A DNA stretch of 64,000 nt from Methanotrichaceae archaeon (GTDB lineage: Archaea; Halobacteriota; Methanosarcinia; Methanotrichales; Methanotrichaceae). Shown here one piece after another: positions 16,727 to 37,137 of this stretch. A program made the translations under genes and the position numbers. Numbering within the stretch: position 1 is the stretch's first letter; every line of letters starts with the position of its first letter. The stretch is from assembly GCA_013178225.1 (NCBI GenBank), contig JABLXE010000008.1:1-64000 (forward strand). Direction: 5' to 3'. The notes beneath the pieces were generated by a model. It was not told the DNA's origin, made no database searches, and saw only the letters and a program-made list of their open reading frames with translations.

Positions 16727-16881
16727 AATTCTTCCATAGTCGTGAATATATTTTAATCTTCTGAAGACGTAAAACTGCAGATACCAGGCAAATTCGGGGT
16801 GGCATTTTATCCGGGCTGGAGATCAAGGGCCTTTCAATTAATGAGATGCAAAGACGTTCGGCCGCGGCCCGGATTCGATCC

Positions 16882-17712
16882 TCATTGCGGTATCTCTTTT
16901 CTGAACCTTGGATCCATCTCGTCTCTCAGGCCGTCGCCGAGAAAGTTGAAGGCCAGCACGGTGATCATTATGGCCAGGCCGGGAAAGATCATTATGTACG
17001 GTGCCTTTCTCATGAACAGGCGGCCGTCATCGAGCATCGATCCCCACTCGGGGGTGGGTGGCTGGACCCCGAATCCGAGAAAGCTCAAGCCCGCTGCGGC
17101 CAGGATTGCATAGCCGATTCCAAGAGTGGCAATAACAATTAGCGGAGAAATTATATTGGGCAGGATGTGGCGAAACATGATGTAAAAGTCGCCCTCTCCA
17201 AGTCCTCTGGCCGCCTCCACGAACTCCTTCTCTTTTACCGAGAGTATCGAGCCCCGGACAACTCTGGCATAGCTGGTCCATTCCACGGCGATCAGAGCTA
17301 TGGCCATGTTGAAAAAACCGGGCCCGAGGGTCCCGGCCAGGGCTATGGCCAGAAACATGCTGGGAACTGCCAAAAAACCGTCAACGAGCCGCATGATCGC
17401 ATTATCCGCAAACCCGCCAAAATAGCCCGATATGGTGCCGAGAACGATTCCAATCAGAAGCGATCCGCTAATAACGATTAAACCGATTAGAAGGGATATC
17501 CTGGCTCCAAATATGATCCGGCTCAGGATACACCGTCCCAAATGATCGGTGCCGAAGGGATATTCTTTTGATGGCGGCTCCAGTCGGATCTTCGGATAGG
17601 CTTTTTCCGGATCGTGAGGAGCAATTTGAGGGGCAAATACTGCGATGAAGATCAGGAAAAAGATTATGGATAATCCGATCAGCACATTCCTGTTCTTAAT
17701 CCATTGTCTCAT
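16882..17712 (-). CDS. ABC permease, peptide/nickel type (DppC/NikC)
   Basis: The 276-residue protein has about six membrane helices, the OppC N-terminal segment (VFAPQIAPHDPEKAYP, GTDHLGRC) and the EAA loop (FVEAARGLGEGDFYIMFRHILPN) that contacts the ATPase. It overlaps the end of the partner permease by 17 bp. It imports a small peptide, nickel or a metal chelate together with the binding protein at 19835. No ATPase gene follows; the next gene, 155 bp downstream, is the ZIP importer. Confidence 0.9.
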   Translation of the reverse strand: MRQWIKNRNVLIGLSIIFFLIFIAVFAPQIAPHDPEKAYPKIRLEPPSKEYPFGTDHLGRCILSRIIFGARISLLIGLIVISGSLLIGIVLGTISGYFGGFADNAIMRLVDGFLAVPSMFLAIALAGTLGPGFFNMAIALIAVEWTSYARVVRGSILSVKEKEFVEAARGLGEGDFYIMFRHILPNIISPLIVIATLGIGYAILAAAGLSFLGFGVQPPTPEWGSMLDDGRLFMRKAPYIMIFPGLAIMITVLAFNFLGDGLRDEMDPRFRKEIPQ

Positions 17713-18652
17713 AGCGTATCCTCGGATCGAGAAAGGTGTAGGATATATCCACGATCAAGTTCAGGATGACAAAGATCATTGCTATGAAGAGTATGGACCC
17801 CTGTATCATGGTGTAGTCCCTCTTGTAGATCGAGTCTACCACCAGACCCCCGATCCCAGGCCAGCCGAATATCCATTCCACCACTACCGCGCCGTTCAGG
17901 AGGAAGCCGAGGCTGAGTGCCAGCATTGTCACCACCGGGATAAGCGCATTTCTCAGCGCGTGCTTTCCTATTACCACCCTCTCGGGCAGCCCCTTTGCCC
18001 TTGCCGTTATGATATAATCCTGATTTAGCGCCTCCAATAGACTCGATCTCATCAATCTGGTGGTAACAGCAGCGGAGCTGGTTCCAAGAACTATGGCAGG
18101 CAGTATCATATGTTCGAGGTCGCCTCCGTCGCCGTATCCGGCAACCGGCAGCCAGTCCAGATAGATGGAAAAAAGAATAATGAGCAGGAACGCCTGCCAG
18201 AAGTTGGGGATGGAAACTCCGATCAGGGCTCCGAACCGGCAGAAGTCATCGATTGCCGTGTTGTTCTTGACCGCAGCCAGGATGCCCAGAGGGATGGACA
18301 CCACGATGGATATGATCATGCTCACGATGGAGAGCTTGAGCGTGGCCTGGAAGCATTTCATGATGGTGTCTGCCACAGGCTGTTCAGACATGTAGGAGTA
18401 GCCCAGGTCACCGTGAAGCAAATTATTGAGCCATAAAAGGTACTGAACGTAGACCGGCTGATCGAATCCCATTCTGACCCTGTATGCTTCGATCATCTCC
18501 GGACTTGGGCTTCCCTGGGGGCTGCTCAAAAGAACCTCGGCAGGGTCCCCAGGTGCCAGGAACACCAGGGAGAAGCTGATTATGGATACGAAGAACAGAG
18601 CCGGTATGATCAGCAAAACTCTCTTTGCCAGGTAGGCAGCCGTTCTAGTCAA
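17696..18652 (-). CDS. ABC permease, peptide/nickel type (DppB/NikB)
   Basis: A 318-residue inner-membrane permease with the usual N-terminal signature (FFVSIISFSLVFLAPGDPAE) and EAA loop (YIITARAKGLPERVVIGKHALRN). It forms the channel with the overlapping DppC-type gene. Start is TTG 18652; GGGAGCAG upstream is a fair ribosome site. The spacing of 59 bp from the methyltransferase gene suggests a shared transcript. Confidence 0.9.
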   Translation of the reverse strand: MTRTAAYLAKRVLLIIPALFFVSIISFSLVFLAPGDPAEVLLSSPQGSPSPEMIEAYRVRMGFDQPVYVQYLLWLNNLLHGDLGYSYMSEQPVADTIMKCFQATLKLSIVSMIISIVVSIPLGILAAVKNNTAIDDFCRFGALIGVSIPNFWQAFLLIILFSIYLDWLPVAGYGDGGDLEHMILPAIVLGTSSAAVTTRLMRSSLLEALNQDYIITARAKGLPERVVIGKHALRNALIPVVTMLALSLGFLLNGAVVVEWIFGWPGIGGLVVDSIYKRDYTMIQGSILFIAMIFVILNLIVDISYTFLDPRIRYETMD

Positions 18653-18711
18653 ATCGTCTGCTCCCGTCCTTTAGAATCCAAGCCAGACATCACCTAAATT
18701 AAAGATGCGGC

Positions 18712-19515
18712 TCAGGCTTTTTCGCCCGTCACCATAAATGTGGGCTCGCTGTGTGAAATGCGGTACAGGAGGGAGCCGTAGGAGTTCTGAAACTTATGCA
18801 CATCCCGCAGATACTTGAAGGACACGTTGGACAGCCCGGCCTCATTGAACAGGGCACAAATCCGCTCCGGCCTGGAATCGCTGTAGAGGGGAAGCTCGCT
18901 CTTAATGGGTTTGTAGTACTTCCCGAAGGCCGAATAATACGAAGGAAGCCTCTTCTCGCTGATCAGCGTTGCAGCCCTGGAAAGACCCCTGCGGATAGTG
19001 GCATCAGGCGAAGTATCGAACCAGGCACCATCGATGGCCAGGATCCGTCCATGGGGCTTCAGGACCCTAGCCCATTCTTCGATGGCCTCTTTGGGATGGG
19101 GAAGCGTCCAGAGGAGGTGTCTGTTCACCAGAAGGTCGAAGGTTTCATTCTCAAAGGGCAGACTTTCGCCATCACCTTTGCGAAAATCTATATCGAGCTT
19201 CATGGCTGTGGCATTGCTTCTGGCTTTTTCGATCATTCCCTCCGAGATGTCGATGCCCGTTACCTTATGGCCCATCTCCGTCAGAATCAGGGCCATAAAA
19301 CCGGGGCCGGTACCCACGTCCAGGACGTTCAGATCCCTGTTATGGTCCAGCAAAGGTTTGAGCTCTCCTTTCCAGACCGACTTCTCCTCCTCTTGAAATC
19401 CGTAAGTGCCATTGGTATAGGTCTGACTTCTCCAGTCCCAATACTTTGAAATAGTTTCTTTCGCGTGCATGAAGCCAACTCGATTTTCGGTGATTATCTC
19501 GGCTATGTTTCGCAC
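18712..19515 (-). CDS. Class I SAM methyltransferase in the transporter cluster
   Basis: Motif I is VLDVGTGPGFMA, followed by VTGIDIS and post-motifs GDGESLPFENETFDLLVNRHLLWTLPHP and EWARVLKPHG, all typical of small-molecule (UbiE-like) methyltransferases. The substrate is unknown. Its position between the binding protein and the permeases suggests it acts on the transported compound, for example a chelator. GTG 19515 has AGGT close upstream and a TATA box (19555-19565) about 45 bp away; ATG 19470 is an alternative start. Confidence 0.82.
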   Translation of the reverse strand: MRNIAEIITENRVGFMHAKETISKYWDWRSQTYTNGTYGFQEEEKSVWKGELKPLLDHNRDLNVLDVGTGPGFMALILTEMGHKVTGIDISEGMIEKARSNATAMKLDIDFRKGDGESLPFENETFDLLVNRHLLWTLPHPKEAIEEWARVLKPHGRILAIDGAWFDTSPDATIRRGLSRAATLISEKRLPSYYSAFGKYYKPIKSELPLYSDSRPERICALFNEAGLSNVSFKYLRDVHKFQNSYGSLLYRISHSEPTFMVTGEKA

Positions 19516-19786
19516 AAAGACCTAAATTCAGTCGATATGAGATACTTTAGTAATATTAATTTATACTCACATCACTTTTGATTTTACTTATTCTGTTTTT
19601 CTTGCTATTTTTAGTTAATAAATGTTTTGGCACCACCCAATATCAAGATCTCGTGCAGCACTTTCGAGCAAGGCAACATGTCGGAAGCTTCAGGAAGTAT
19701 CGTAAGCTGCAGAACATTGTCTGGCAGGAGATGCCTCCTCCCATTGAGGAAGAAAATTGATACAAAAAGGAAGGAGAACAGAAATG
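19516..19786. other. Intergenic region with promoter of the methyltransferase-permease genes
   Basis: On the minus strand GTATAAATTAAT (19555-19566) is a TATA candidate for the methyltransferase and dppB/C genes. The rest shows only short open frames without ribosome sites. Confidence 0.45.
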
Positions 19787-19820
19787 GGCGAAAAGGCTTG
19801 AATTTCAAGCCTTTTTCGCC
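19787..19820 (-). terminator. Stem-loop after the binding-protein gene
   Basis: Arms GGCGAAAAGGCTTGA and TCAAGCCTTTTTCGCC pair almost perfectly with a 3-nt loop, 15 bp after the stop codon of the binding-protein gene, followed on the minus strand by pyrimidine-rich sequence. It could terminate or stabilise the 3' end, giving more binding protein than permease. Confidence 0.6.
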
Positions 19821-19834
19821 TCGATCAATGGTCC

Positions 19835-21364
19835 TTAGTCCAGGGCCACGTTCTTCGTCAGAATAGTGATCTCGCTTGGGTATATCTCGAATCCCTTCAC
19901 GCGATCGTTGACTCCTGCCAGCATCTTGTCGTAGAACAGATAGATCTCCGGAGAATCCTCCAGCACATGTTCCTGAATCTCTTTGTAGATCTCCATCCGC
20001 TCGTCCTGGTCCAGAGTCGTTCTTCCCTTGGCAATCAAGTCGTCGAGGCCTGGATAACGGGTCCACCCCGCCTCTGTGCTGTTCGACAGGAACTGCTGGG
20101 AGACGAAGTAGTCCGGGTCGCCGTTGGTGGCAACGCCGTAGGCGTACAGCGCAAGATCGTAGTTCCCGTTGCTCATGTCCGATTTTATGGCTGCAGTCTC
20201 AAGGGTCTCCACACTGGTCTTGATTCCGATATTTTCCAGCTGGGAAGCGATTACCTCTGCAGAGGGCTTGTTCGCAGGCCTGCTGGTGTAGGTCTTAATT
20301 GAGAGCTCGAATGGCTTGCCATCGTAGAGCCATGCTTCGCCGTTCCAGGTGAGTCCGGCATCCTCCAACAGCTCTTTTGCCTTGTCCGGGTCGTAGGGGT
20401 AACCCATCAGCTCATCGTTTGCCGACCAGGGGTAGTTCGAAGGCCAGAAGCATTTTGCAGGCGTTCCGGCAACCCCTTCCAGGGCAGTATCGACCAGCTC
20501 TTCCCGGTTGATGGCGTAATTGATGGCCTGCCTGACCTCCACCTTATCAAGGGGCGGCTTCGCCGTGTTTACGAACATGAAGTAAGTCCGCATGGTATCT
20601 TTCGAGGCTACGCTTGTAGTTGGGCCGTCTTCTATGGTCTCATACCATTGTGCGGGCATGGCCCAGGCGATGTCGACTTCATCTCCCTCGAGCATCAGTG
20701 CCCGGGTCTCGGGTTGAGCTATGTAAGATACGACCGCGCCATCCGCCTCGACGGGCCCGTTCCAGTAATTTTCGTTCCCCTTCATGGTGAGCTTTACGTC
20801 CGGATCGTAGCTGACGAATTGGAAGGGACCTGTTCCCACCGGCTCGGTCTTCAGATTATCTGCGGCAGGGCTTACCATGCAGGCGATCCTGATGTCTGCA
20901 AAGGCCGCGAGGGTTGGAGCATATGGTTCCTTGGTGGTGATCTTGATGGTATGATCATCTGCAGCAGTAATGGAGTCGATAAAGCTGTATTGATCGTACC
21001 AGCGGTTCTCGGGATCCTCCCTCACGCGGTTGATGGAGTAGATTGCTGCATCGGCGTCGAAGGGAGTGCCGTCGTGGAACTGTACCCCCTCTCGAAGGTG
21101 TATGATCCACTCGGTATCGCTGGCCCGCTCATATCCCCGGGCCAGTTCGGGAACAAGGTTCATGTTCTCATCGTAAGCGAAGAGGGTCTCATAGATCCCG
21201 GCCTGCCTCAGGTACCATCCAGAATAGTCGAAGGCAGGGTCGAGATTTTCCCCCGGCATGAAGGGCATCACCAGTCTCACATCTTCAGCCACCGCTCCTG
21301 AAATCGACATCATCAGCAGTAGCGCGACGGCGCAAAACGCGTTAGTCAAATATCTCTTCAGCAT
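19835..21364 (-). CDS. ABC substrate-binding protein, peptide/nickel family (DppA/NikA)
   Basis: This 509-residue exported protein starts with a signal peptide (YLTNAFCAVALLLMMSISGAVAED) and has the full family-5 solute-binding fold, including the hallmark REGVQFHDGTPFDADAAIYSINR and PVGTGPFQFVSYDP. It delivers the ligand to the permeases encoded downstream. GGAGGT lies six bases before the ATG. A strong stem-loop separates it from the other transporter genes. The ligand cannot be told from sequence; nickel, dipeptides or a metallophore are all possible. Confidence 0.92.
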   Translation of the reverse strand: MLKRYLTNAFCAVALLLMMSISGAVAEDVRLVMPFMPGENLDPAFDYSGWYLRQAGIYETLFAYDENMNLVPELARGYERASDTEWIIHLREGVQFHDGTPFDADAAIYSINRVREDPENRWYDQYSFIDSITAADDHTIKITTKEPYAPTLAAFADIRIACMVSPAADNLKTEPVGTGPFQFVSYDPDVKLTMKGNENYWNGPVEADGAVVSYIAQPETRALMLEGDEVDIAWAMPAQWYETIEDGPTTSVASKDTMRTYFMFVNTAKPPLDKVEVRQAINYAINREELVDTALEGVAGTPAKCFWPSNYPWSANDELMGYPYDPDKAKELLEDAGLTWNGEAWLYDGKPFELSIKTYTSRPANKPSAEVIASQLENIGIKTSVETLETAAIKSDMSNGNYDLALYAYGVATNGDPDYFVSQQFLSNSTEAGWTRYPGLDDLIAKGRTTLDQDERMEIYKEIQEHVLEDSPEIYLFYDKMLAGVNDRVKGFEIYPSEITILTKNVALD

Positions 21365-24457: not shown

Positions 24458-25468
24458 CTAACTGGAGTTCGGGCAAGCGTAGGCTCCCTCCAGCTCAAGG
24501 CTGTAGAACCTCTCGATCAGGTCCTGGTGGACGGCCTCAGGATCGATGTCCTCGAAGAGCTGCGGATGAAGCCACTTGGCCAGGTAGAGCTCTCCAACGA
24601 TTGCCCGTATTCCTGTGGTAATCTTGCCGCTGATCACACAAACCCGACCGTCCTTCACCGCCTTCACGCTCTGAAGCTCCGGTCGGCTGATTATGTCTTG
24701 CCTCAACTTCGCCAGATCCTCTTCGGTGTAGGCCCTGGTGCTGGGCTCGGACTGAAGAATGATATCGGGGTCAATCTCCACCACCCATTCCGGGCTCACA
24801 TCGGGATAAGAGTTCGATTCATTGCCGAGGTCGGAGGCGGCGTTAATTCCGCCGGCGAAGGTTATGAAGTTATGATAAGACCCGGCAGATGATACGGTAT
24901 GATAGGGTGTCCCGTACCACTCAAAGAAGACGGTTGGGGTCTCCATGGGCAGAAGGGAGGAAGTTCGCTCCTCAATTAAGTCCTGATAGTTCTCGATAAA
25001 GCTTATCAGCTCCTGGGCTCGCTCTTCCTTTCCCAAGGCCTGGCCCAGGTTATTCATGACCGTAACGGTCCTGGTGGGATCGATAAATTTCTCCTCCAAT
25101 ACCGGTATTCCTTCCTCTTCCAGGGTATTCTTATCGTCCTCCGAGATCATGGTGTCGGCCACCACCAGATCCGGGTCCAGCTCCAGTATCAGCTCTACGT
25201 CGGGAGAATAGGAGTTCTTGCCCACGTTGGTCACCGTCTCTAGATAGGGCGGATAGTCGGAATTGGATGAGCATCCCACCAGGCTTTCGCCTCCATCCAA
25301 AGCACAGATGATCTCTGAGGCACCACCAGCAAGAGAGACGACGCTCTTGATCGGTGCATCAACGGTTACTGAGTGTCCGGCAAAGTCGACCAGCGTTACG
25401 GGCTCCCCACTTCCAGCTAAAGAGAGGAGGCTGACGCTAATCAGAATCCAAAAGGCTGTATTTTTCAT
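24458..25468 (-). CDS. Periplasmic-binding protein, BtuF/FepB (iron-complex or cobalamin) type
   Basis: After a signal peptide (FWILISVSLLSLAGSG) the sequence has the class-III binding-protein layout: short N lobe VTLVDFAGHSVTVDAPIKSVVSLAGGASEIICAL, a long connecting helix, and C lobe SVKAVKDGRVCVISG. These proteins bind iron-siderophore, haem or cobalamin. The start is ATG 25468 after GGTGG; an upstream in-frame ATG is less likely. It is a tandem duplicate of the next gene. No permease or ATPase is in the window. Confidence 0.88.
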   Translation of the reverse strand: MKNTAFWILISVSLLSLAGSGEPVTLVDFAGHSVTVDAPIKSVVSLAGGASEIICALDGGESLVGCSSNSDYPPYLETVTNVGKNSYSPDVELILELDPDLVVADTMISEDDKNTLEEEGIPVLEEKFIDPTRTVTVMNNLGQALGKEERAQELISFIENYQDLIEERTSSLLPMETPTVFFEWYGTPYHTVSSAGSYHNFITFAGGINAASDLGNESNSYPDVSPEWVVEIDPDIILQSEPSTRAYTEEDLAKLRQDIISRPELQSVKAVKDGRVCVISGKITTGIRAIVGELYLAKWLHPQLFEDIDPEAVHQDLIERFYSLELEGAYACPNSS

Positions 25469-25510
25469 GAAGCCACCACTTTCCATTTCCAGCATATTTT
25501 CAGCTGCAAT

Positions 25511-26512
25511 CTAAGCTTTGGTGGGGTAGGCGAACTCCCCCTCCAGCTCCATATCGTAGAAATTGCGAATCAGCTTTTCATGCTCAGTTCCAGGATCTAT
25601 GGCTTCGAAAAGCTCAGGATAGAACCACTTGGCCAGGTAAAGCTCTCCGATCGACGAGCGGACCCCGGTAGCCACCGTGCCGCTGAGGACGTAGACCCGT
25701 CCATCCTTTACAGCCCTCAGATTTTGTAGCTCAGGGCGGGCCATGATCTCGTCCCTCCACTCTTTTAGGTCCTCCTCAGAATACTGCTCGGAGCTTCCCA
25801 GTATGTGGAGAATTATATCAGGGTCCCTTTCGATCACCCATTCCGGGCTGAGGTTGGGATAGTTGACCGATTCATTTGCGGCTATGTTGGAGGCCCCGGC
25901 AAAGTCGATGAAATTGCCGTAGGATGTGCCGCTAGATGCCGAGAAATACGGCCTTCCCAGCCACTCAAAGAAGACTGTGGGCCGATCCTCGGCAGCTATT
26001 CCGCCGGTGCGTTCCTTTATGAGGTCTTGATAGCCCTCGAGCAGGCCGGAAAGCTCCTGAGCACGCTCCTCCTTTCCCAGAGCCCGTCCCAGGTTATCGA
26101 TGACCGATAGCGTTCGATAGGGGTCGATGAACCTCTCCACCACCACGGCAATTCCATCCTCCTCGAGCACCTGGCGGTCCTCGTCAGAGAGCATGGTATC
26201 GGCGATCACTAGACCAGGTTTAAGCTCCATGATGAGCTCGAGATCCGGCGAATTGGAGTTTGACCCCACCACGGTGACGTTTTCTAGAAGGGGCGGAAAA
26301 TCCGAGCTTGAACTCCTGCCCACCATGCTCTGGCCGCCATCCAGGGCCCAGAGGATCTCAGAAGCCGCGCCTGAAAGGGAGATGGTGGTGTTCACCGGAG
26401 CGGACACCTCTACCTCGCGACCTGTAAAATCAACTATGGTTACCGTCTCTGCACAGCATGCTGCGATCAGCATGAAAAGAGAGATCGACAATCCTAGAGC
26501 CTTTGATTTCAA
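25511..26512 (-). CDS. Periplasmic-binding protein, BtuF/FepB type, tandem paralogue
   Basis: A 333-residue exported protein closely similar along its whole length to the product 42 bp downstream (shared segments ALDGG, NNLG/DNLGRALGKEERAQEL, PTVFFEW, ELYLAKW). The two arose by tandem duplication and share a transcript. TTG 26512 with AGGAGGT ten bases before it is the start. The ligand is presumably an iron complex, haem or corrinoid; some residues in the cleft differ between copies, so their ligands may differ. Confidence 0.88.
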   Translation of the reverse strand: MKSKALGLSISLFMLIAACCAETVTIVDFTGREVEVSAPVNTTISLSGAASEILWALDGGQSMVGRSSSSDFPPLLENVTVVGSNSNSPDLELIMELKPGLVIADTMLSDEDRQVLEEDGIAVVVERFIDPYRTLSVIDNLGRALGKEERAQELSGLLEGYQDLIKERTGGIAAEDRPTVFFEWLGRPYFSASSGTSYGNFIDFAGASNIAANESVNYPNLSPEWVIERDPDIILHILGSSEQYSEEDLKEWRDEIMARPELQNLRAVKDGRVYVLSGTVATGVRSSIGELYLAKWFYPELFEAIDPGTEHEKLIRNFYDMELEGEFAYPTKA

Positions 26513-26673: not shown

Positions 26674-27894
26674 ATGTTGATAAAATTAGGTGGGCAAAGG
26701 TTAAACCGACTTTTAATGGCTGCATTGATTTTGTGCTCAATGCAGCTCCTGGCAAATGGGTCGGATTTCATCCTGAATATCTATGGAAACGCCAACATGG
26801 ATCAGGCTATAGACCAGAGGGACGTGGACTATGTTGATGCAATGATCAACGGAACTGTGAAGTCCTGCGATCTGGCCGACGCCAACCGCGACGGCACCAT
26901 CGACCAAGCGGATATCGCGCAGGTCGAGGCCATCATTGCAGGAGACGAAACGATCCTCATAGTAAAGGATACGGCTAACCGTACGGTCTCAATTGACATG
27001 CCCGTCGAGAAGGTAATCGTTCCCAGCGGGCTTACTGCAGAGGCCTTCAAGGTATTGCGGGCCTCGGACAAGATCGTGGGCGTCTCCAATGCGATTCACG
27101 AGAAAGACTACTTCTTCCCCGAACTGGCCGACAAGCCCTCGGTCGGAGGATGGAAAATTGAGGACTACGAGGCTGCTGTCTCCCTTGACCCGGATCTGGT
27201 AATAAGCTACGAAAAGTGGCCTCCGATCTCTGAGGCTGAAGAAAAACTGGCCTCCTTTGCAGTTCCCGTCGCCGTCCTGGAGTTTACAGATCCGGACCTG
27301 GTGGAGGAAGAGCTTGTCAAGCTGAGCTACATTTTGGGCACTGCCGGCGTCGAAGACCAGTATCTACGGTGGCGGTCCGGCTACGAGAAACAAATCGAGG
27401 ACTTCGTGGGCAATCTTTCAGAGGACGAAAGGCCCAGGGTTTTCCTGGAGACCGGCTTCAAGGGGCTAAACGATGTCGGCACATACGGTGAAGGGGCAAA
27501 GGGGAACATCGTTCTCAACCTGACCGGCGGCCGAAATGTGGCGGCTGGAATAGATGAAGCCTATCCGCACGTGGACAGTGAATGGATCATCACCCGGAAT
27601 CCTGAGGTGGTGATAAAGTACGTGTACAGCTCAGAAGTCGACTGGGGCTGGAACAGCACGCAAAAGCCTGAAGCATTGGTTCAGGAGGTCCTGCATCGCG
27701 ACGGGTGGGAAAGCATAGACGCAGTTAAAAACCAGAGGATATGCCTGGTCAGCAACGAACTCATGACCGGGCTGGATAGCATAGTCGGATACCTGTACTG
27801 GGTCAAGCTGCTTTTCCCCGAGTTCGATGTGAGCCCAAGAGATGCCTATAGAAAGTATATCAATGATTTCTTGGGCATGGATTTCCGGATTTGA
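26674..27894 (+). CDS. Dockerin-like domain fused to iron-complex-type binding protein
   Basis: After a signal peptide, residues about 32-90 contain two calcium-loop repeats of the dockerin/EF-hand kind (NANMDQAIDQRDVDYVD and DANRDGTIDQADIAQVE). Residues about 95-405 are a BtuF/FepB-type binding domain (DTANRTVSIDMPVEKVIVPSG, SIDAVKNQRICLVSN). The calcium module could attach the binding protein to another surface protein through a cohesin. It is probably leaderless: the TATA element lies about 30 bp before the ATG. Such fusions are known among Methanosarcinales. It faces away from the other two binding-protein genes. Confidence 0.82.
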   Translation: MLIKLGGQRLNRLLMAALILCSMQLLANGSDFILNIYGNANMDQAIDQRDVDYVDAMINGTVKSCDLADANRDGTIDQADIAQVEAIIAGDETILIVKDTANRTVSIDMPVEKVIVPSGLTAEAFKVLRASDKIVGVSNAIHEKDYFFPELADKPSVGGWKIEDYEAAVSLDPDLVISYEKWPPISEAEEKLASFAVPVAVLEFTDPDLVEEELVKLSYILGTAGVEDQYLRWRSGYEKQIEDFVGNLSEDERPRVFLETGFKGLNDVGTYGEGAKGNIVLNLTGGRNVAAGIDEAYPHVDSEWIITRNPEVVIKYVYSSEVDWGWNSTQKPEALVQEVLHRDGWESIDAVKNQRICLVSNELMTGLDSIVGYLYWVKLLFPEFDVSPRDAYRKYINDFLGMDFRI

Positions 27895-28003: not shown

Positions 28004-28017
28004 AACATTTAAGTAAA
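28004..28017. repeat. 14-bp element, copy 1
   Basis: AACATTTAAGTAAA, identical to 28574-28587. This copy is 159 bp before the 90-residue gene at 28176 and near the TATA-like AATATTTAAC (27989-27998). It may be a regulator site common to this region. Confidence 0.4.
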
Positions 28018-28175
28018 TCCTATTTGCTTTAATTCAAGCTTGTTGGAACAAAAGAGTTCCATGCGTCCATTCAAATCAGGAAGCGAGGGTGAGAGGCAAA
28101 TACGGGCTCTGACTCTTGCTTCCATCTCCCACTTAAAGGATTTTGGTTGCGCAATTGCGGTATTGGAGGCACATT

Positions 28176-28448
28176 ATGGCAGAAGAGAAGGGCACACTCA
28201 AGATGAAAGAGATAAATGAGAAGCTATCTGATTACAAAGTGCAGAGCCTGGAGGGGGTCGTCCTGGAGGGCGACATCGAGATTGAGATGGATCTCTCCAG
28301 CGGGGCGCAGCCTTTACTGGCGCAGTCGCTGGGCCAGGAGTTCACCAAGCTTGCTATTCAGCTATTCGATTTTTCCAGGGCCATGGGATATCCGGCAGAT
28401 TCAATGATCCGGCCTGCAGGCCCCGGGCCAGAATCAACGACTAGGTGA
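28176..28448 (+). CDS. 90-residue protein of unknown function
   Basis: GGAGG seven bases before ATG 28176 marks the start. The product is acidic and soluble with no signal peptide: MAEEKGTLKMKEINEKLSDY, then a strand-rich VQSLEGVVLEGDIEIEMDLSSG and a helix TKLAIQLFDFSRAMGY, ending in a Pro/Gly tail. No family recognised. It sits in the iron/tetrapyrrole island between a binding protein and the CobN-like protein, which suggests but does not prove a related role. Confidence 0.6.
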   Translation: MAEEKGTLKMKEINEKLSDYKVQSLEGVVLEGDIEIEMDLSSGAQPLLAQSLGQEFTKLAIQLFDFSRAMGYPADSMIRPAGPGPESTTR

Positions 28449-28958
28449 GGTCGTCATTAAATAGTAGTTCTATTTTCTATTTTTATTTACAATAATTCAG
28501 GGAATTTTCGCTGACTTTTTGCCAGAGAGTGCTATAATTTGCTATATTTGAGTTTGTAGATATTTTATAGCATAACATTTAAGTAAACTAAAATGATGTT
28601 TAGCAAACTCTATTGGAGAAATGCCTTAATCGGGTATCAGAAAACGTGATGGATGGTCGAAGAAAAAACTACTATAATAATATTGATGATATTCTATCCG
28701 TACTTCGCTAAACGTATCACCCAAGCCGCCTTTGCCTGGCAGGAAAGGGCTCAGTTCATGCTTCAATTAAGGATAGCTGGCGGCCTGGTGCGACGACTGC
28801 GGCCGGGCGGCAGGCTTTCTTCAGCCTCTCTTCTGACCCGGCTGCCTGGACCCAGCGGTCGCGGGAGGCTTTTCAGCCTTTGCTGCAGTTTCTGCTGCAG
28901 CCGGATAGAGGATTTCACAATTCTTTTAGGGTAATCGATTGACAAAGGAGGAAATTGA
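28449..28958 (+). other. Long leader region of the CobN-like gene
   Basis: TATTTTATAG (28561-28570) is a likely TATA box and AACATTTAAGTAAA (28574-28587) repeats the element at 28004. If transcription starts near 28595, the mRNA leader is about 360 nt, its second half GC-rich and able to form stems (for example CTGCAG-TTT-CTGCTGCAG near 28881-28901). I could not match it to a known riboswitch, and no open frame here has a ribosome site. Confidence 0.4.
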
Positions 28959-31900
28959 TTGAACAACCAAAGACACCCCAGGCCGATTGTAGGAACGCCG
29001 GTATTGGCGCTCTCAATCATCCTCTTGGTTTGGGCGACGACTGCCTGTGCCGATTTCTCCACTTTTCAGGGGGATAATCAGCGCTCGGGAAACTTAAGTG
29101 GCGAGGATGGCCCCGGTGAGCCAGAACTGATCTGGAGCGTCAGCCCCACCGGCCACGGATACATCGCAGCATCTGCAGCTGTATCCGGCGACCGGATCTT
29201 CGTCCCCAACTGGCCGGACATGACCTTCAAGGGCGAACTGGGGTTTGCCTGCCTGGACAAATCCGACGGCCGGGTCTTATGGCTGAATCCCCTGGGTGGA
29301 AAGGGAGGTGCGTCAACCCCGGCATTAGAAGGAGATCGGATCTACGTGGGATCGCTCACCGGCGACATTTTCTGTCTGGAGTCCACATCCGGAGAGACGG
29401 TATGGAACCGGACCATAGATGCCAGTCCGAAATGGTGGGGCGTGGCCTCTTCTCCCCTGATTCAGGACGGGACCGTCTACGTCATGAGCTTCTCGGACGG
29501 GACTTTGCACGCCCTGAACCTTGACGGAGAAGAGCTGTGGAACCTGTCCACCGGCCAGATAAACCCCTATGCATCTCCCGCATATCAGAGCCAGAGGCTG
29601 TACTTTCCGGGAGGCGACCCCGCGCTGTACTGCATAGATTCGATATCTAAAGACGTTTTATGGAAGGCGGCAGCCAATTCCCAGATCACCGCCACTCCCA
29701 CTGTGGAAGGAGATCGGGTCTTCTTGGTCACCGAAGAGACGATTCTGGCCCTGGACACCAAATCGGGAGAACAGGTCTGGACGGCAGACATCAACGGCAC
29801 CATATCGTCTCCGGCGGTGTCTCTTGGCCGGGTCTACGCGGGATCTGAAGACAAGCCCAAAGGTCACCTGAGCTGCTTTGATGCCGAATCCGGCTCGCTA
29901 ATCTGGAGAACGGAGGTCAACGGGCCGGTCAAGTCCTCTCCCCTGGTTCTGAACGGTCGGCTGTACTTTGGAACCAGCTGCGATAGCGGGACCATCTATG
30001 CGCTCGAGGCCTCGAACGGGTCTGTGGTCTGGACCTATCCGGTGGACTCCTATATCATGTCCTCGGCCTCGGCCTCAGGCGGCATGCTCTTCATCGGAGC
30101 CGACGACGGCCGGCTGTACGCCTTTGGGTCCTCCAAGGTCGGCCTGATCTGGCAGGGAGAGACGGTTCTAGAGGACGGGAGCCTGAACCTCACGGCCAGC
30201 AGCGGCAAGACCTACATGGTCAACCAGACCACCGCTCTGGGCGCGCTGGCCACGGCCTGCGAGCAGGGCGGACTGACCCTCGGCTTAAACGACTCCCTCT
30301 ACAGCCTCTACGGCCTGCAGATCGAGTCTTTGGAGGACTATAAAGCCGATGCCGGGAAGTCCTGGAGATTCTGGGTAAACTATCCCCAGGAATCCATGCC
30401 CATCTCAGGTCCGGACCTCACCGACTTGAGGGACGGCGATCGGGTCGTCTTCTACTATGGAGACCGGCGGGCAAGCCCTGAAGAGGCTCCTCGCGTAGAG
30501 ATCTCGGCCAGGGTCCTCCAGAGGAGGCCCGCGGTCCTTTTTTTGACCGTGGGAAATCACCCCCAGATAAAAGAGGCATCTACTGATGCAATCCTCAACG
30601 TGACCTTAGTCTCGCCCCAAAATGTCACCAATTTATCCTCGTACGAACTTATCTTCGCCGAGATGATCGGAGCGGAGGCAGCATCCAGGCTTGAGCCGCT
30701 GCTGCAGGAAGAGAAGAAGAAAGGGGTGCCGATCGTAGTCCTGAACTCAGCCGGCTACGAGCATCTGGGCAGCGTGAACCTCAGCGAGCACCCATCGATC
30801 CAGGAGTATTGGGACTTCGGCCGCACCGAGAACGTAAGAAGGCTGTTCTCCTACCTGGCCGCCAATTTCTGCGGCCTGAACGTTAAGGTGGAGGAACCGG
30901 TTCCTGCACCCAAAGAATATATGTACCATCCGGACTCGCCCGACCTATTCGACAACTTATCCTCCTACCTCGATTGGTACCAGAGTAAAACCGGATATCA
31001 TTACAATCATCTCTTTCCCACCATCGGTGTCCTCAGCTATTACCAGGACCTGGGCCAGCCGGACCGACCGGCACTGGTCCGTGCCCTGGAAGAAAACGGA
31101 GTGAACGTAATCTTCGCCGGCTATTCCGATTCCTCTGCTCTGCAGAAGTTCTTTACCGTAAACGGGACTCCCATCGTGGATGCTGTCATTCTCACCAAGT
31201 CATTTCGATTAAACTACGGCGACCCCGATCAGGGAATCGCCGACCTGCAAGAGCTGAACGTGCCGGTCTTAAGAGGCATGAGGCTATATTATCAAACTCC
31301 CGAGGAGTGGAACAACGAGACCGGAATCGATCCCCTGGAGATCTATTTTCAGATAGCTCTGCCGGAGATGGACGGCGTGATAGAGCCTATCGTCATCTCC
31401 GGAAGGAACGACTCCGAGTACGTGCCTATAGAGAGCCAGATGGACTGGCTGGCTGACCGGGCCGTATCCTGGGCAGATCTCGGGCGGACCAACGACTCGC
31501 AGAAGAAGGTCGCAGTGATCTACTACAACCACGGGGGCGGAAAGGACAACATCGAGGGCTGCTACATAAACATCCCCCGCAGCCTGCAGAACATCCTGGA
31601 TGGATTGATCGGGGCCGGCTACAATGTCAGCGGCTCGGTCCCGGATGAGAAGGTGCTGGTGGACCTGCTGGCCCACCAGGGAACCAACGTCGGAACCTGG
31701 GCTCCGGGCGAGCTGGAGTCGATGGTGGCCGCGGGAAACGCGACCCTGATCCCGTCAGAGGATTACGAGGAGTGGTTCTCAACTCTTTCCCAGGATAAGC
31801 AGGACCAGGTGACAAAGAGCTGGGGAGCGCCTCCGGGAGAGATCATGGTCTACCAGAACCAGAGCGGCAAGTACCTGGTGATACCCAAGCTGTCCTTTGG

Positions 31901-34496
31901 AAATGTGATTCTCCTTCCCCAGCCCACCAGAGGATGGCTGCAGAACGCCACCATTCTCTACCACGACAAGTCGGTCCCGCCACATCATCAGTACATCGCC
32001 TTCTATTTCTGGCTGAAGAAGGGATTTTGTGCCGATGCCGTGGTTCATCTGGGAAAGCACGGCACCCAGGAGTGGCTTCCCGGAAAGGAGTGCGGGATTG
32101 GGAGAGACGACTGGCCGGCCCTGCTCATCCAGGACCTTCCGGTGGTCTACCCCTACATTGTAGACAACATCGCTGAGGGGACCCAGGCCAAGCGCCGGGG
32201 TGACGCGGTGATGATCACCCACCTGACGCCTCCAATCGTAGCCTCAGGGCTCTACGGAAACCTGACCAACCTGGCGGAGATAGTCTTCGAGTACAGGAGC
32301 GTGCAGAACGAAAGCGTAAAGGAAAGCTACAAGCGACAGATCGTCAACCTGAGCCGGGATATGCACCTGGACGAAGACCTCCAGCTGAACCTCACCAACA
32401 TCTCCGGCAACCAATCCGAATTTGATGATTTTTCAGACCAGCTGGAGGAGTACCTGTACGACCTAAAGAACCAGTTCATGCCCTACGGGCTGCACGTGTA
32501 CGGGCAGCCGCCGGAAGGGCAGCCCTTGACCGGCCTGGTGAAATCGATGCTTGGGGACCCGTTCAACCGGGCAGTCGCTCCACTGGTCGGCTACAGCGAT
32601 TACCCCAACGCCGCCCGCATGGACAAAGAGAACGAGCTGGATAACAGCACCCAGAAGCTCCTGTGGGAGACGGTGATCAACGGGACGTCTCCCGAAGAGG
32701 CCCAGGCTGCTATTCTTGGAAATGTATCCGGTAACGTAACCGATCTGCTCAACCTCTCGCTGCAGTACGGGAGGGACATCGCCGCCTGCTCGGCTGAGGT
32801 GCCGAGCCTGGCAAATGCCCTTGACTCCAACTACACTTTGCCCTCTCCTGCAGACGACCCCATACGGGACCCGCAGGTGCTCCCCACCGGCAGGAACTTC
32901 CGGTCGGTTGATCCCCGCAGGGTCCCGACCGGTGCCGCCTGGGAGGTGGGTTCAAGCCTGGCCGAGAAGCTGATTGACGGCTACCGGCAGGATCACAACG
33001 GCACCTACCCGCGCAAGCTGGCCCTGGTGCTGTGGGCCTGGGCCATGACCGATCACGGAGTGGTGGAGTCCGAGATCCTGAAGCTGGTGGGGGCAGAGCC
33101 GGTCTACGACGCCTACGGCGGCGTGAGCGACGTCCGGCTAATTCCGCTATCCGAGCTGGGCCGACCGAGGATCGACGTAGTCGTGGTCCCATCCGGACTG
33201 CACCGGGACCTCTTCCCGGAGAAGCTCCAGCTGATCGACAAAGCAGTGCGCCTGGCGGCCAACGACACCGGAACAGACTATCCCAACTACGTCCGGGAGA
33301 ACTCTGAGGAGATCTACCAACAGCTGATGGAGGGCGGCAACCTCAGCCAGGAAGAGGCCCAAATACTCTCCAGGTCCAGGATATTTCTGGAGGAGGCGGG
33401 AACTTACGGGCCCAACCTAGACAGCCCCGTTTCCGCCAGCGATACCTGGGAAAACGACACCAAGCTAGGCGACCTGTTCATCAGGAGGATGTCTTACATC
33501 TACGGCGACGGAATCTGGAGCAGCAAGCTCGCCTCCGGAGAGGACCTGAAAGGCGTTCAGGAGGAGATCTTCAGGACCAACCTGGCCGAGGTTGACGCCG
33601 CAGCTCAGCACACCAACTCCAATCTCTACGGGTTCATCGACAACGACGATGTATTCCAGTACCTGGGCGGAATCGGGCTGGCGGTGAGAACCGTCACCGG
33701 AAAGACACCGGACATGTACGTGACCGACGCCCGGGACCCTGACAAAGCCCAGGTCTCCGGTCTGAAGGGCTTCTTCTCGAAAGAGCTACGGAGCCGCTAC
33801 TACAACCCCCAGTGGATCAAAGGGATGATGGAGCAGGGGTACTCAGGTGCCCGGGAGATGGACAAGTTTGCCGAGTATCTGTGGGGATGGGAGACCACAG
33901 TTCCCGATCTGGTGAGCGAGAACACCTGGTCGGAGGTAAACGAGATCTACGTCCAGGACAAATACCAGATGGGCCTAAAGGAGTTCTTCGACCAGAACAA
34001 TCCCTGGGCCTCACAGGCCCTGGCCGGGCGGCTGCTGGAGACGGCCAGAAAGGATCGCTGGCATCCCACCGAAGAGACGAAGAAAGAGCTTGCAGAGCGC
34101 TACGAGCAGTCGGTGCAGGACTACGGTGTCACCTGCTGCCACCACACCTGCGGAAATCTTCTCCTGCAGGAGTACATGCAGGGGGTGCTGCCATCTCCTG
34201 AGCCGCAAAAGTCCGGCAGCAGTTCCAGCAAGCCCAGCCAATCATCATCCAGCAAATCCGGCTCCAGCGGACGGTCGCATGCCTACAACCAGACCAGATC
34301 GGAAGGCGTAGGCACGACAGCTTCTCAGAAGCCGGTTGAATCCGATTCCTCCCCGGGCCAGGTGCAGGGGTTTGTGATGGAAGCGGTTCAGACCAGGGCC
34401 ACACCAACGAGCGCATCCGGAGCGCCGCTGGTCGGCATCGGACTGGTGCTGATGGTGCTCTTCATGATCTGGATGGGATTCAGAGGCAAGTGGTGA
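28959..34496 (+). CDS. Exported PQQ-propeller / DUF4430 / CobN-like chelatase, membrane-anchored
   Basis: The 1845-residue protein starts at TTG 28959 after AAAGGAGG. Order of parts: signal peptide (about 1-31); PQQ-type beta-propeller (about 35-395) with repeated G-x-x-x-W and D-G-x-x-Y/H-A-L units; DUF4430 (about 410-515, GALATACEQGGL...RFWVNYP); a complete CobN/BchH-type chelatase (about 520-1725) with the hallmark HLGKHGTQEWLPGKE near residue 1030; a Ser/Pro-rich linker; and one C-terminal helix followed by RGKW. It therefore faces outside, fixed to the membrane. True CobN needs cytoplasmic CobS/CobT ATPases, which are absent here, and methanogens insert cobalt by the anaerobic route. Removal of metal from, or binding of, an external tetrapyrrole is a better guess; CobN-like HmuS of Bacteroidota is linked to haem-iron use. 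It precedes the feo genes. Confidence 0.88.
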   Translation: MNNQRHPRPIVGTPVLALSIILLVWATTACADFSTFQGDNQRSGNLSGEDGPGEPELIWSVSPTGHGYIAASAAVSGDRIFVPNWPDMTFKGELGFACLDKSDGRVLWLNPLGGKGGASTPALEGDRIYVGSLTGDIFCLESTSGETVWNRTIDASPKWWGVASSPLIQDGTVYVMSFSDGTLHALNLDGEELWNLSTGQINPYASPAYQSQRLYFPGGDPALYCIDSISKDVLWKAAANSQITATPTVEGDRVFLVTEETILALDTKSGEQVWTADINGTISSPAVSLGRVYAGSEDKPKGHLSCFDAESGSLIWRTEVNGPVKSSPLVLNGRLYFGTSCDSGTIYALEASNGSVVWTYPVDSYIMSSASASGGMLFIGADDGRLYAFGSSKVGLIWQGETVLEDGSLNLTASSGKTYMVNQTTALGALATACEQGGLTLGLNDSLYSLYGLQIESLEDYKADAGKSWRFWVNYPQESMPISGPDLTDLRDGDRVVFYYGDRRASPEEAPRVEISARVLQRRPAVLFLTVGNHPQIKEASTDAILNVTLVSPQNVTNLSSYELIFAEMIGAEAASRLEPLLQEEKKKGVPIVVLNSAGYEHLGSVNLSEHPSIQEYWDFGRTENVRRLFSYLAANFCGLNVKVEEPVPAPKEYMYHPDSPDLFDNLSSYLDWYQSKTGYHYNHLFPTIGVLSYYQDLGQPDRPALVRALEENGVNVIFAGYSDSSALQKFFTVNGTPIVDAVILTKSFRLNYGDPDQGIADLQELNVPVLRGMRLYYQTPEEWNNETGIDPLEIYFQIALPEMDGVIEPIVISGRNDSEYVPIESQMDWLADRAVSWADLGRTNDSQKKVAVIYYNHGGGKDNIEGCYINIPRSLQNILDGLIGAGYNVSGSVPDEKVLVDLLAHQGTNVGTWAPGELESMVAAGNATLIPSEDYEEWFSTLSQDKQDQVTKSWGAPPGEIMVYQNQSGKYLVIPKLSFGNVILLPQPTRGWLQNATILYHDKSVPPHHQYIAFYFWLKKGFCADAVVHLGKHGTQEWLPGKECGIGRDDWPALLIQDLPVVYPYIVDNIAEGTQAKRRGDAVMITHLTPPIVASGLYGNLTNLAEIVFEYRSVQNESVKESYKRQIVNLSRDMHLDEDLQLNLTNISGNQSEFDDFSDQLEEYLYDLKNQFMPYGLHVYGQPPEGQPLTGLVKSMLGDPFNRAVAPLVGYSDYPNAARMDKENELDNSTQKLLWETVINGTSPEEAQAAILGNVSGNVTDLLNLSLQYGRDIAACSAEVPSLANALDSNYTLPSPADDPIRDPQVLPTGRNFRSVDPRRVPTGAAWEVGSSLAEKLIDGYRQDHNGTYPRKLALVLWAWAMTDHGVVESEILKLVGAEPVYDAYGGVSDVRLIPLSELGRPRIDVVVVPSGLHRDLFPEKLQLIDKAVRLAANDTGTDYPNYVRENSEEIYQQLMEGGNLSQEEAQILSRSRIFLEEAGTYGPNLDSPVSASDTWENDTKLGDLFIRRMSYIYGDGIWSSKLASGEDLKGVQEEIFRTNLAEVDAAAQHTNSNLYGFIDNDDVFQYLGGIGLAVRTVTGKTPDMYVTDARDPDKAQVSGLKGFFSKELRSRYYNPQWIKGMMEQGYSGAREMDKFAEYLWGWETTVPDLVSENTWSEVNEIYVQDKYQMGLKEFFDQNNPWASQALAGRLLETARKDRWHPTEETKKELAERYEQSVQDYGVTCCHHTCGNLLLQEYMQGVLPSPEPQKSGSSSSKPSQSSSSKSGSSGRSHAYNQTRSEGVGTTASQKPVESDSSPGQVQGFVMEAVQTRATPTSASGAPLVGIGLVLMVLFMIWMGFRGKW

Positions 34497-34632: not shown

Positions 34633-34685
34633 TTTAGGTAAGCCGAAATGTTTATCTGCCAGGCTGTGATTTAGGTTCGCCTAAA
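34633..34685 (+). promoter_or_regulatory. Two DtxR-type operators before feoA
   Basis: TTTAGGTTCGCCTAAA at 34670-34685 is a perfect inverted repeat of the TTAGG-N4-6-CCTAA type bound by iron-dependent DtxR-family repressors. A second copy with one mismatch, TTTAGGTAAGCCGAAA, is at 34633-34648, 37 bp away. They lie 29-81 bp before the feoA start, where the promoter must be, and the operon ends with a dtxR gene. Confidence 0.75.
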
Positions 34686-34713: not shown

Positions 34714-34947
34714 ATGGAAATTCCGATCACAAGCTTGAGCGCCGGAACCGAGGCCGTGGTCGTGACGCTGCTCGGCCATGGATGCACATTTCAGAGGAGG
34801 CTTCGGACCATGGGAATCAGAGAAGGAAAAAGCCTGAAGGTGGTGGCGATTCACCCCCTGGCCGGACCGCTGGTCATTGAGGTGGATGGAAGACAGATCA
34901 CTATTGGACGGGGCATAGCCCAGAGGATCATGGTGCAGGTAAAATAA
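34714..34947 (+). CDS. feoA: Ferrous iron transport protein A
   Basis: A 77-residue SH3-like cytoplasmic protein with the family pattern LRTMGIREGKSLKVVAIHPLAGPLVIEVDGRQITIGRGIAQRIMV. It assists FeoB in Fe2+ uptake. The stop codon overlaps the feoB ATG (TAATG), so translation is coupled. Two DtxR-type sites precede it. Confidence 0.93.
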   Translation: MEIPITSLSAGTEAVVVTLLGHGCTFQRRLRTMGIREGKSLKVVAIHPLAGPLVIEVDGRQITIGRGIAQRIMVQVK

Positions 34948-36659
34948 TGAAGCGCATCGTCCTGATGGGAAATCCGAACATCGGAAAGAGCGTGGTCTTT
35001 TCCCGGCTGACCGGAGCCGATGTGATCACCTCCAACTATCCGGGAACAACTGTTGATTTTTCTCGGGGAAAGGCCCGGCTGATGGGAGAGGTGGCAGAGC
35101 TGATAGACGCGCCCGGCACCTACTCCCTGGAGCCGTCCAACCGGGCCGAGGAAGTGGCCGCTGAGGTTCTCAACTGGGCCGACCTGATAATAAACGTGGT
35201 CGATGCCACCAACCTGGAGCGAAACCTCTTCCTGACGCTCGAGCTCCTGGAGAAAGACCGGCCCCTGATAGTGGCCCTCAACATGTGGGACGAGGCCGGG
35301 CGCTCAGGCATAGAGATCGACGTCAAAGGCTTAGAAGAGCGCCTGCAGGTTCCGGTGGTTCCCACAGTTGCCCTGACCGGGGAGGGAATCTCGGAGCTGG
35401 TCGGCAGGATGGCCGAGGCTCGACATCCGGCGGAGTTGGAGGCCAGAAGCGAGGAAGAGAGATGGATGGAGATTGGCCGCATAACCAAGGAAGTTCAGAC
35501 CATCACTCACCGGCACCCCACCGTCTGGGACAGAATCGCCCAGGCCAGCATCAGGCCTGCCACCGGCATTCCGCTGGCGTTGTGCATAATCCTGGCCACC
35601 TTCTGGCTTGTCCGGCTGATAGGAGAAAGCCTCATCGAGTACATATTCGACCCCCTGTTCGAGCTGTACCTGCCCATAGTTACGGCCATAAGCGATTGGC
35701 TTGGGCCGGGATTTCTGCACGATGTTCTCATCGGGCATCTGATCGACGGAGAGATCGACTATGTGCAGTCTTTAGGCATGCTGACTACCGGCCTCTACGT
35801 TCCCTTTGCCATGGTCCTTCCCTACATCGTGGGATTTTACCTGGCCCTGTCACTTCTGGAGGACTCGGGCTATCTGCCCAGGCTGGCCACGCTTTCCGAT
35901 AACGTCTTTCACAAGCTGGGCATGCACGGCCACGGGATTGTGCCGGTATTTCTGGGGCTGGGCTGCAACGTTCCGGGAATTTTAGCCACCAGAAATCTGG
36001 AAACCAGGAAGCAGCGTTTTATCTCCGCCACGCTGCTGGGGCTTGCCGTCCCCTGCACCGCGAAGACGGCCATGATCTTCGGGGTGCTGGGCCCCTACGG
36101 GATGGGCTATCTGATCCTGGTCTTCTCTACCCTGGCAGCCGTTTACGTGGCCGTGGGGCTTATACTGAACCATTTCTTGAAGGGAGAGTGCCCGGAGATC
36201 TTCCTGGAGATTCCCCCTTACCGGAGACCCAGCCTGTCCATGGTCCTGAAGAAGACCTGGATGCGCGTCCGCTGGTTCCTCTCAGAGGCCATCCCCTACC
36301 TGTTCCTGGGAGTGTTCCTGATCAATGTGCTGTACTCCCTGGGCTTGCTGCAGTGGCTGGGAGACGTCTTTTCTCCCTTCATGGAGAGCTGGCTCGGGCT
36401 TCCCGGGGACGCGGTGACCGTCCTTCTGGTGGGCTTTCTCCGAAAAGATCTGGCGGTGGGAATGCTTCTGCCTCTGGGCCTTGATGCCGAGCAGCTGGTC
36501 GTGGCCACTACCGTTTTATCTCTATATTTTCCGTGTGTGGCCACCTTTGCCGTGCTGATTAAAGAGCTGGGGATAGTGGATACCCTAAAATCCACAGCAG
36601 TGATGGCAGTTACCGCTCTCTTGGTTGGAGGAGCGATGCACATGGTTCTGATGGGGTGA
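34947..36659 (+). CDS. feoB: Ferrous iron transporter FeoB (GTPase-permease)
   Basis: At 570 residues this is the compact archaeal form. The N-terminal G domain (1-165) shows G1 GNPNIGKS, G2 with the Thr of YPGTTVDFS, G3 DAPGTYSL and the G4 position at NMWD. About ten membrane helices follow, with the two Gate regions (GLGCNVPGILATRNLETRKQRF and VLLVGFLRKDLAVGMLLP) and cysteines in each (GCNVPG, VPCTAK, FPCVAT). It imports Fe2+ under anoxic conditions. It overlaps feoA by one base and is followed by dtxR 7 bp later. Confidence 0.95.
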   Translation: MKRIVLMGNPNIGKSVVFSRLTGADVITSNYPGTTVDFSRGKARLMGEVAELIDAPGTYSLEPSNRAEEVAAEVLNWADLIINVVDATNLERNLFLTLELLEKDRPLIVALNMWDEAGRSGIEIDVKGLEERLQVPVVPTVALTGEGISELVGRMAEARHPAELEARSEEERWMEIGRITKEVQTITHRHPTVWDRIAQASIRPATGIPLALCIILATFWLVRLIGESLIEYIFDPLFELYLPIVTAISDWLGPGFLHDVLIGHLIDGEIDYVQSLGMLTTGLYVPFAMVLPYIVGFYLALSLLEDSGYLPRLATLSDNVFHKLGMHGHGIVPVFLGLGCNVPGILATRNLETRKQRFISATLLGLAVPCTAKTAMIFGVLGPYGMGYLILVFSTLAAVYVAVGLILNHFLKGECPEIFLEIPPYRRPSLSMVLKKTWMRVRWFLSEAIPYLFLGVFLINVLYSLGLLQWLGDVFSPFMESWLGLPGDAVTVLLVGFLRKDLAVGMLLPLGLDAEQLVVATTVLSLYFPCVATFAVLIKELGIVDTLKSTAVMAVTALLVGGAMHMVLMG

Positions 36660-36666: not shown

Positions 36667-37137
36667 ATGAGAAAGAAGACCATGGAGGAGTATATCGAGA
36701 CCATATCAACTCTGGAGGACAGGGAGGGTAAGGCCCAAACCGGCAAAATAGCATCGGAGATGAATGTAAGGCCGTCATCGGCAACTGAGATGCTGCAGAA
36801 GCTGCAGGAGGAGGGCCTACTGAGGTACGAGACCTATTCCGGGGCAACCCTCACACCAGCAGGCAAGGAACTTGCCCGGGACCTGGACCGAAAGCATGGA
36901 GTGATTGCCGATTTCCTGGAGATAATTGGCGTTTCTAAAAGCGTGGCCGATGCGGATGCCTGCCAGATCGAGCACCATGTGAGCCGCGAAAGCGTGGAGC
37001 AGCTGGAAAAGTTCGTGGAGTTTGCCAGGGGATCTCTTCACGACCCAAATTGGATAAGGAATTTCAGAAAGTATTGCGAGACCGGCCGGCCGGTGGATTG
37101 CAACTCCTGCGGCAGGAGAGGATCTGACAATAAGTAA
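36667..37137 (+). CDS. DtxR-family metal-dependent repressor
   Basis: Residues 1-65 form the winged helix-turn-helix (TGKIASEMNVRPSSATEMLQKLQEEGLLRYETYSGATLTPAGKELA). Residues about 70-130 are the dimer/metal domain with family ligands (RKHGVIADFLEIIG, DACQIEHHVS). The C-terminal tail VDCNSCGRRG carries a CxxC pair not needed in classical DtxR. With Fe2+ bound it should repress the feo operon through the operators at 34633-34685, so it is probably autoregulated as the third gene of the operon. Confidence 0.9.
   Translation: MRKKTMEEYIETISTLEDREGKAQTGKIASEMNVRPSSATEMLQKLQEEGLLRYETYSGATLTPAGKELARDLDRKHGVIADFLEIIGVSKSVADADACQIEHHVSRESVEQLEKFVEFARGSLHDPNWIRNFRKYCETGRPVDCNSCGRRGSDNK

Follow-up and report, generated by a model that had tools for sequence, protein, structure and literature searches.

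Results

Gene and domain architecture of the putative surface chelatase

The window, i.e., the whole stretch of 64,000 nucleotides of Methanotrichaceae DNA, presumably from a methanogen, that was analyzed, is part of contig C27 of a genome with a total size of 2.98 Mb; features given as start..end lie on the plus strand unless stated otherwise. An open reading frame at 28959..34496, with a TTG start and GGAGG upstream, encodes a product of 1845 amino acids, which was assigned to surface-anchored propeller-CobN proteins of the HmuS/BtuS chelatase type on the basis of the reading frame, Pfam, the PDB match, trees and hydropathy. A hydrophobic N-terminal segment, predicted as signal peptide (aa 1-31, 28959..29051), peaks at aa 10 and keeps its position in homologues. 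It is followed by a PQQ/BamB-type beta-propeller (aa ~32-400, 29052..30158; PF13360 (PQQ_2), 2.2e-53), which among the loci examined was fused to or located beside the chelatase only in Methanotrichaceae. The next region (30156..30488) resembles DUF4430, the transcobalamin C-terminal type, with a score of 20.6 bits, lower than the Pfam cut-off of 23.8. DUF4430 was matched in 9/9 aligned homologues and was absent from four others, and a search of the PDB with the DUF4430 profile of the window protein did not match transcobalamin. The complete CobN/Mg-chelatase domain (PF02514; aa 616-1707, 30804..34079) spans positions 2-1089 of the 1090 in the profile with 1139 bits and contains HLGKHGTQEWLPGKE. 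Beyond it, a CCHHTC motif (aa 1726-1731, 34134..34151) and a low-complexity linker precede a C-terminal membrane helix predicted by hydropathy (aa 1823-1841, 34425..34481).

Only two strongly hydrophobic 19-mers, starting from aa 10 and aa 1823, were found in the protein. An earlier, sequence-only reading of this DNA had proposed the same set of signal peptide, propeller, complete CobN region and C-terminal helix, and Pfam and hydropathy agree with it, DUF4430 being sub-threshold. Homologues with the same architecture and 59-76% identity are encoded in related genomes and, together with a recurring cobN-feoA-feoB-dtxR gene order (see below), argue that this architecture did not arise by chance.

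Family placement and active site

The best PDB match of the window protein was HmuS (9d26, 543 bits), followed by ChlH (479) and CobN (476). In two trees, of 49 and 48 rows, a branch with SH-aLRT support of 99-100 separated all cytoplasmic CobN, BchH and ChlH proteins and the archaeal cytoplasmic copies from HmuS, bacterial CobN proteins with ExbB/DUF2149 neighbors and the archaeal extracellular proteins. The proposed kinship with HmuS over cytoplasmic CobN is borne out by these trees and by the 9d26 match, and in both trees the window protein lies outside the Bacteroidota HmuS clade proper. It also scored under every CobN equivalog cut-off (best 1208 vs. 1619 bits). Judged by these comparisons, the protein is not a CobN cobaltochelatase, and it does not stand alone either.

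His538 of HmuS is conserved as His1034 (32058..32060), flanked by residues that are unlike those of HmuS and similar to those of CobN. The HmuS haem ligand His254 is replaced by Ser748 and His1209/Trp1202/Gln1198 by Asp/Tyr/Asn; the column of the site-1 ligand Met79 is occupied by Ile570, next to Met569, and the methionine-rich domain IV insertion is missing, with about 73 residues compared to about 226 in HmuS. Since the tree side and His538 are kept, but His254, Trp1202, His1209 and the methionine-rich insertion are not, the sequence comparison classes the window protein as HmuS type, yet not as an HmuS. Haem, one of the substrates proposed earlier, is possible, although the HmuS-like haem site is weakened because His254 and His1209 are not conserved.

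Extracellular CobN paralogues in which the catalytic HxGxHG block is lost and replaced by an FxxFS-like sequence were seen in G049 (L053), Methanoculleus sediminis (L123) and Chitinophaga (L148) and are possibly binding-only partners. In another genome (G003:C48, L042), two extracellular CobN genes form a tandem pair, of which only one encodes a propeller.

Predicted location outside the cell

The window protein contains 37 N-glycosylation sequons, compared to 10.4 ± 3.1 in shuffled versions (z 8.6; 3.5-fold). A similar excess (z 5-10) was found in eight other proteins from the HmuS/BtuS side of the family, whereas the three other CobN copies of the genome and four of a relative contain 0-8 sequons, with a highest z of 2.4. 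By the same count, FeoB contains none. Taken together, sequons, predicted signal peptide and C-terminal helix make an exterior, glycosylated and membrane-anchored protein a well-supported prediction, and the surface location claimed before agrees with all three.

The feo-dtxR neighborhood

Directly downstream of the chelatase gene lie feoA (34714..34947; PF04023, 1.5e-19), feoB (34947..36659; TIGR00437 above cut-off) and a gene for a DtxR/MntR-type metal-dependent repressor (36667..37137; PF01325 and PF02742). The order cobN-feoA-feoB-dtxR is present in four genomes, namely the window genome, G024, G040 and G020; most relatives lack adjacent feo genes. Upstream of feoA, a DtxR-type palindrome, TTTAGGTTCGCCTAAA (34670..34685), is conserved in G024 as TTTAGGTTTGCCTAAA, and a second DtxR-type site, TTTAGGTAAGCCGAAA, is located at 34633..34648, so that DtxR-type boxes precede feoA in two genomes. 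A genome-wide search with the DtxR-type pattern allowing two mismatches was discarded as noise, since the reversed control yielded more matches; of the candidates from the DNA-site scan, only near-exact DtxR-type matches and the ATTTAAGTAAA element were retained. The iron link drawn in the sequence-only reading is thus upheld by the feoAB-dtxR adjacency and the boxes. That reading had named cobS/cobT in place of feo as evidence against it; contrary to that condition, AAA+ genes adjoin the cytoplasmic CobN copies and not the window gene.

Three FepB/BtuF-type binding proteins (PF01497, Peripla_BP_2) are encoded upstream of the chelatase at 24458..25495 (minus strand), 25511..26512 (minus strand) and 26674..27894. 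The N-terminal dockerin-like repeats of the third suggest cell-surface docking. The DNA element described below was absent before the two of these genes that were scanned (25511..26512 and 26674..27894). The three proteins are present as described earlier; their membership in the system is not borne out. Elsewhere, the window contains a run of metal-related genes (14735-21364) for CDF efflux, ZIP and SBP_bac_5 proteins with OppB/OppC-type permeases, and a TelA-family gene of the toxic anion resistance family (46738-48099).

A rare DNA element shared with a second locus

The element ATTTAAGTAAACTAAA (28577..28592), upstream of the chelatase gene, is common to a gene cluster on contig C24. A second copy, ATTTAAGTAAATCCTA (28007..28022), precedes a small open reading frame of about 90 amino acids without family match (28179..28448), which lies between the two elements and whose membership is uncertain. 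The pattern ATTTAAGTAAANYNNA, picked after two of its sites had been seen, occurs five times in the 2.98 Mb, with two copies at the window locus, two at the C24 cluster and one elsewhere, compared to 0 copies genome-wide for the reversed control. The C24 cluster (159590-165122) encodes a pair of propeller proteins and a trio of DUF2162, ExbB-like and DUF2149 proteins. Its element copy is identical upstream of a propeller-propeller-cobN-feoA-feoB-dtxR cluster in G024, and less well matching versions stand before the operon in a number of further genomes of the family. A search of the regions preceding the trio in the other families of this class did not find it. The rarity of this shared element suggests that the window gene and the C24 propeller/trio cluster could belong to one regulon.

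Divergent from the C24 propeller/trio cluster, three secreted proteins are encoded on the minus strand (G000:C24, L059, 1423-2445, 2617-3654 and 3682-5172), one carrying three DUF4430 domains, one an alpha/alpha toroid, and one a DUF4430-like domain with a Cys-rich tail. A copy of the element lies upstream of these genes. In G016 and G018, the Cys-rich/toroid pair comes after the trio. A cbiZ gene and a cytoplasmic cobN are located about 10 kb from the C24 cluster.

The ExbB-like/DUF2149/DUF2162 trio accompanies extracellular chelatases

Relatives have genes for two further propeller proteins, DUF2162, a MotA/ExbB-family protein and DUF2149 on the flanks of the chelatase gene. The trio adjoins the chelatase in G016, G018 and most relatives; in the window genome it forms the separate C24 locus, and these partner genes were missing from the sequence-only reading. 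The order chelatase-T-U-V equals that of the Bacteroidota hmu operon, in which hmuU encodes a MotA/TolQ/ExbB protein and hmuV a DUF2149 protein (PMC10434189); it was seen at loci of Prevotella, Aureibacter and B. finegoldii.

The channel subunit of the trio matched PF01618 (MotA_ExbB) above cut-off and conserves the blocks GLMGTLIPMGP and AFxTTVxGL. DUF2149 has a single N-terminal helix with a near-invariant Asp26 (Glu in Runella); its structure model reached a pLDDT of 61.7, and searches of the PDB and Pfam linked its sequence to neither ExbD nor MotB. In DUF2162 a CPxC motif within a membrane helix is invariant, and a fold search of the PDB with its model (pLDDT 78.6) gave no match below E 0.1.

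Of 50 genomes of the family, 24 encode both DUF2149 and an extracellular CobN, and one genome each has only the one or only the other; for the class, the count is 129 of 238, with 2 and 22 exceptions. The p-values for this co-occurrence are inflated by kinship, but in the family the two genes are distributed patchily and in step. When 19 DUF2149 loci from different parts of the class were sampled, 15 had the chelatase next to them. From a scan of the genomes of 85,000 species, at least 77 named loci were obtained. The archaeal loci listed belong to methanogens, ANME-1, ANME-2 and Ethanoperedens, the bacterial ones to Pseudomonadota, Bacteroidota, Verrucomicrobiota, Thermodesulfobacteriota and Myxococcota, in addition to cyanobacterial ChlH. 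Among the matches listed, ExbB and DUF2149 were present at all bacterial non-cyanobacterial loci but one (L156, with chelatase genes only), and a TonB-dependent receptor was present at nearly all of them and seen at none of the archaeal loci. Also among the matches listed, no AAA+ chelatase partner was seen near any of the 77 loci; BchI/D-type AAA+ genes were found near two loci of cytoplasmic CobN copies in the window genome.

DUF2162 accompanies the HmuS/BtuS-side chelatase in archaea and some anaerobes. Its presence coincides with a C-terminal CCxxxC motif in the chelatase, both being found at 47 loci and neither at 24; at the single exception the motif occurs without a visible DUF2162 and the locus is truncated at its edge. 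On supported branches the two changed jointly three times, and all 3 independent pairs agree, a number too small for significance in a phylogenetically controlled test.

The Trichlorobacter operon with a chelatase also contains a separate ExbB-ExbD-TonB set. On the Runella slithyformis plasmid pRUNSL01 (L069), a trio-type CobN lies in a hyp/NiFe-hydrogenase operon in which DUF2162 is replaced by a UreH-like transporter; this module may be a variant for nickel.

Discussion

From its architecture and gene links, the window protein probably removes metal from tetrapyrroles at the cell surface as part of a system for scavenging iron, and would release Fe(II) for FeoB. The C-terminal helix would anchor the glycosylated chelatase on the outer face of the membrane. 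There it may bind a tetrapyrrole that carries a metal, with haem or another iron porphyrin as the likeliest candidate, and the conserved His1034 would be the site at which the metal is stripped. Docking or ligand capture may be the task of the propeller and DUF4430 modules; the electron role that the sequence-only reading had offered as one option for the propeller lacks support beyond the family name. The Fe(II) set free would be taken up via the adjacent FeoAB, the DtxR-type repressor would turn the system on at iron shortage, and we infer that the trio at G000:C24 would act as membrane partner.

In HmuS, the H538A exchange abolished haem conversion, the reaction requires a reductant and not ATP, and the recombinant protein halts after 1-2 turnovers (PMC12583661). 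FeoAB is needed alongside the HmuS system in B. fragilis, as shown genetically (PMC6460266). In M. barkeri, a related methanogen, reuse of haem iron has been proposed for the CobN-like BtuS, two copies of which (MSBRM_0518 and MSBRM_1640) were more abundant on Fe(II)/cysteine and on FeS2 than on Fe(II)/sulfide, so that abundance tracks the iron/sulfur source (PMC10846266). This is the only functional hint in archaea; the available part of that source contains no location, partner or family analysis of BtuS and describes neither a propeller nor a feo-dtxR linkage, unlike what is seen for the window protein.

The window system shares with the Bacteroidota HmuS/BtuS system (hmuYRSTUV operon) a non-cytoplasmic CobN-type chelatase that bears terminal membrane helices, the conserved histidine, the missing ATPase partner and the linkage to ExbB-like HmuU and DUF2149 HmuV. 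It differs in that the protein is archaeal, carries the propeller and DUF4430 fused N-terminally and lacks the methionine-rich insertion and His254, in that HmuY and a TonB receptor are absent, and in that the archaeal CCxxxC and the CPxC-bearing DUF2162 are found where Bacteroidota have HmuT. CobN cobaltochelatase and the Mg chelatase subunits ChlH/BchH belong to the same catalytic superfamily with the conserved histidine, but are cytoplasmic and unanchored, lack the sequon excess, have AAA+ partners and fall on the opposite side of the trees.

The trio resembles the ExbB/ExbD, MotA/MotB and TolQ/TolR motors in having a true MotA_ExbB member, and may do so in its small one-helix protein with a near-invariant Asp, although DUF2149 has no detectable ExbD/MotB sequence match and the archaeal loci have no TonB receptor. 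Archaea such as these are not known to possess an outer membrane. That they keep the ExbB/DUF2149 pair, and that Trichlorobacter has its separate ExbB-ExbD-TonB set, indicates from gene content that the pair probably serves the chelatase and not a receptor. We tentatively propose, at somewhat less than an even chance, that ExbB-like/DUF2149 is a proton motor acting on the chelatase in place of the AAA+ ATPase, and that the DUF2162 CPxC and the CCxxxC motif form an electron or metal relay, which would pass electrons outward or metal inward. This arrangement would explain why archaea that have neither an outer membrane nor TonB receptors retain the pair, the separate Trichlorobacter set and the arrest of HmuS after 1-2 turnovers.

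A serious, though on balance unlikely, rival is a corrinoid system that captures cobalamin-like corrinoids at the surface for salvage and leaves their metal in place, or handles precursors, with the DUF4430 and toroid proteins as transcobalamin-like binders. DUF4430 and the alpha/alpha toroid are the two fold types of transcobalamin. The co-regulated secreted C24 proteins of these types, which also stand beside the trio in G016 and G018, together with the nearby cbiZ and cytoplasmic cobN, point towards corrinoids for part of the system, as does DUF4430 within the window protein itself. Several homologues lack DUF4430, however, the catalytic histidine is kept although a pure binder would not need it, and the cobN-feoAB-dtxR order and DtxR boxes point to iron. 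Removal of cobalt from corrinoids, which the sequence-only reading had allowed, is chemically unlikely, as we know of no mild chemistry that takes cobalt out of intact corrins. Further points for this rival are that DUF4430 sits at the C terminus of transcobalamin (PMC4350170) and that the Trichlorobacter homologue lies within a plasmid-borne cobamide gene cluster (PMC3403914).

It is quite improbable that the surface chelatase acts on another metal or tetrapyrrole (nickel, zinc, magnesium or chlorophyll-derived porphyrins), or inserts a metal instead of removing it. The residues near the conserved histidine, which differ from HmuS and resemble CobN, would fit such a role, and the Runella homologue in its nickel operon implies that the module is not bound to iron everywhere; in the window lineage, the feoAB-dtxR neighborhood and the DtxR-type boxes speak against it. 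For insertion, neither ATP nor a metal donor is present outside the cell to our knowledge. An ordinary CobN cobaltochelatase with accessory domains for cobalamin synthesis, as database models label the protein, is hardly credible given its exterior features, its tree side, the absent AAA+ partner and the missed equivalog cut-offs.

In the HmuS structure paper, archaeal use of the homologues was considered unclear, complete hmu operons being lacking there (PMC12583661). The chelatase and HmuU/V-type partners are now seen class-wide in archaea, with surface features, and in the window lineage the chelatase is tied to iron uptake as well. New are the retention of the ExbB/DUF2149 pair by archaea without an outer membrane, which calls into question the outer-membrane receptor role now ascribed to HmuU/HmuV, and the C-terminal CCxxxC that tracks DUF2162. 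The shared element and the trio suggest how an extracellular chelatase could work without ATP. As an iron-scavenging surface de-chelatase, the window protein would represent a possible way for methanogens and ANME archaea to draw iron from compounds resembling haem in sulfidic sediments.
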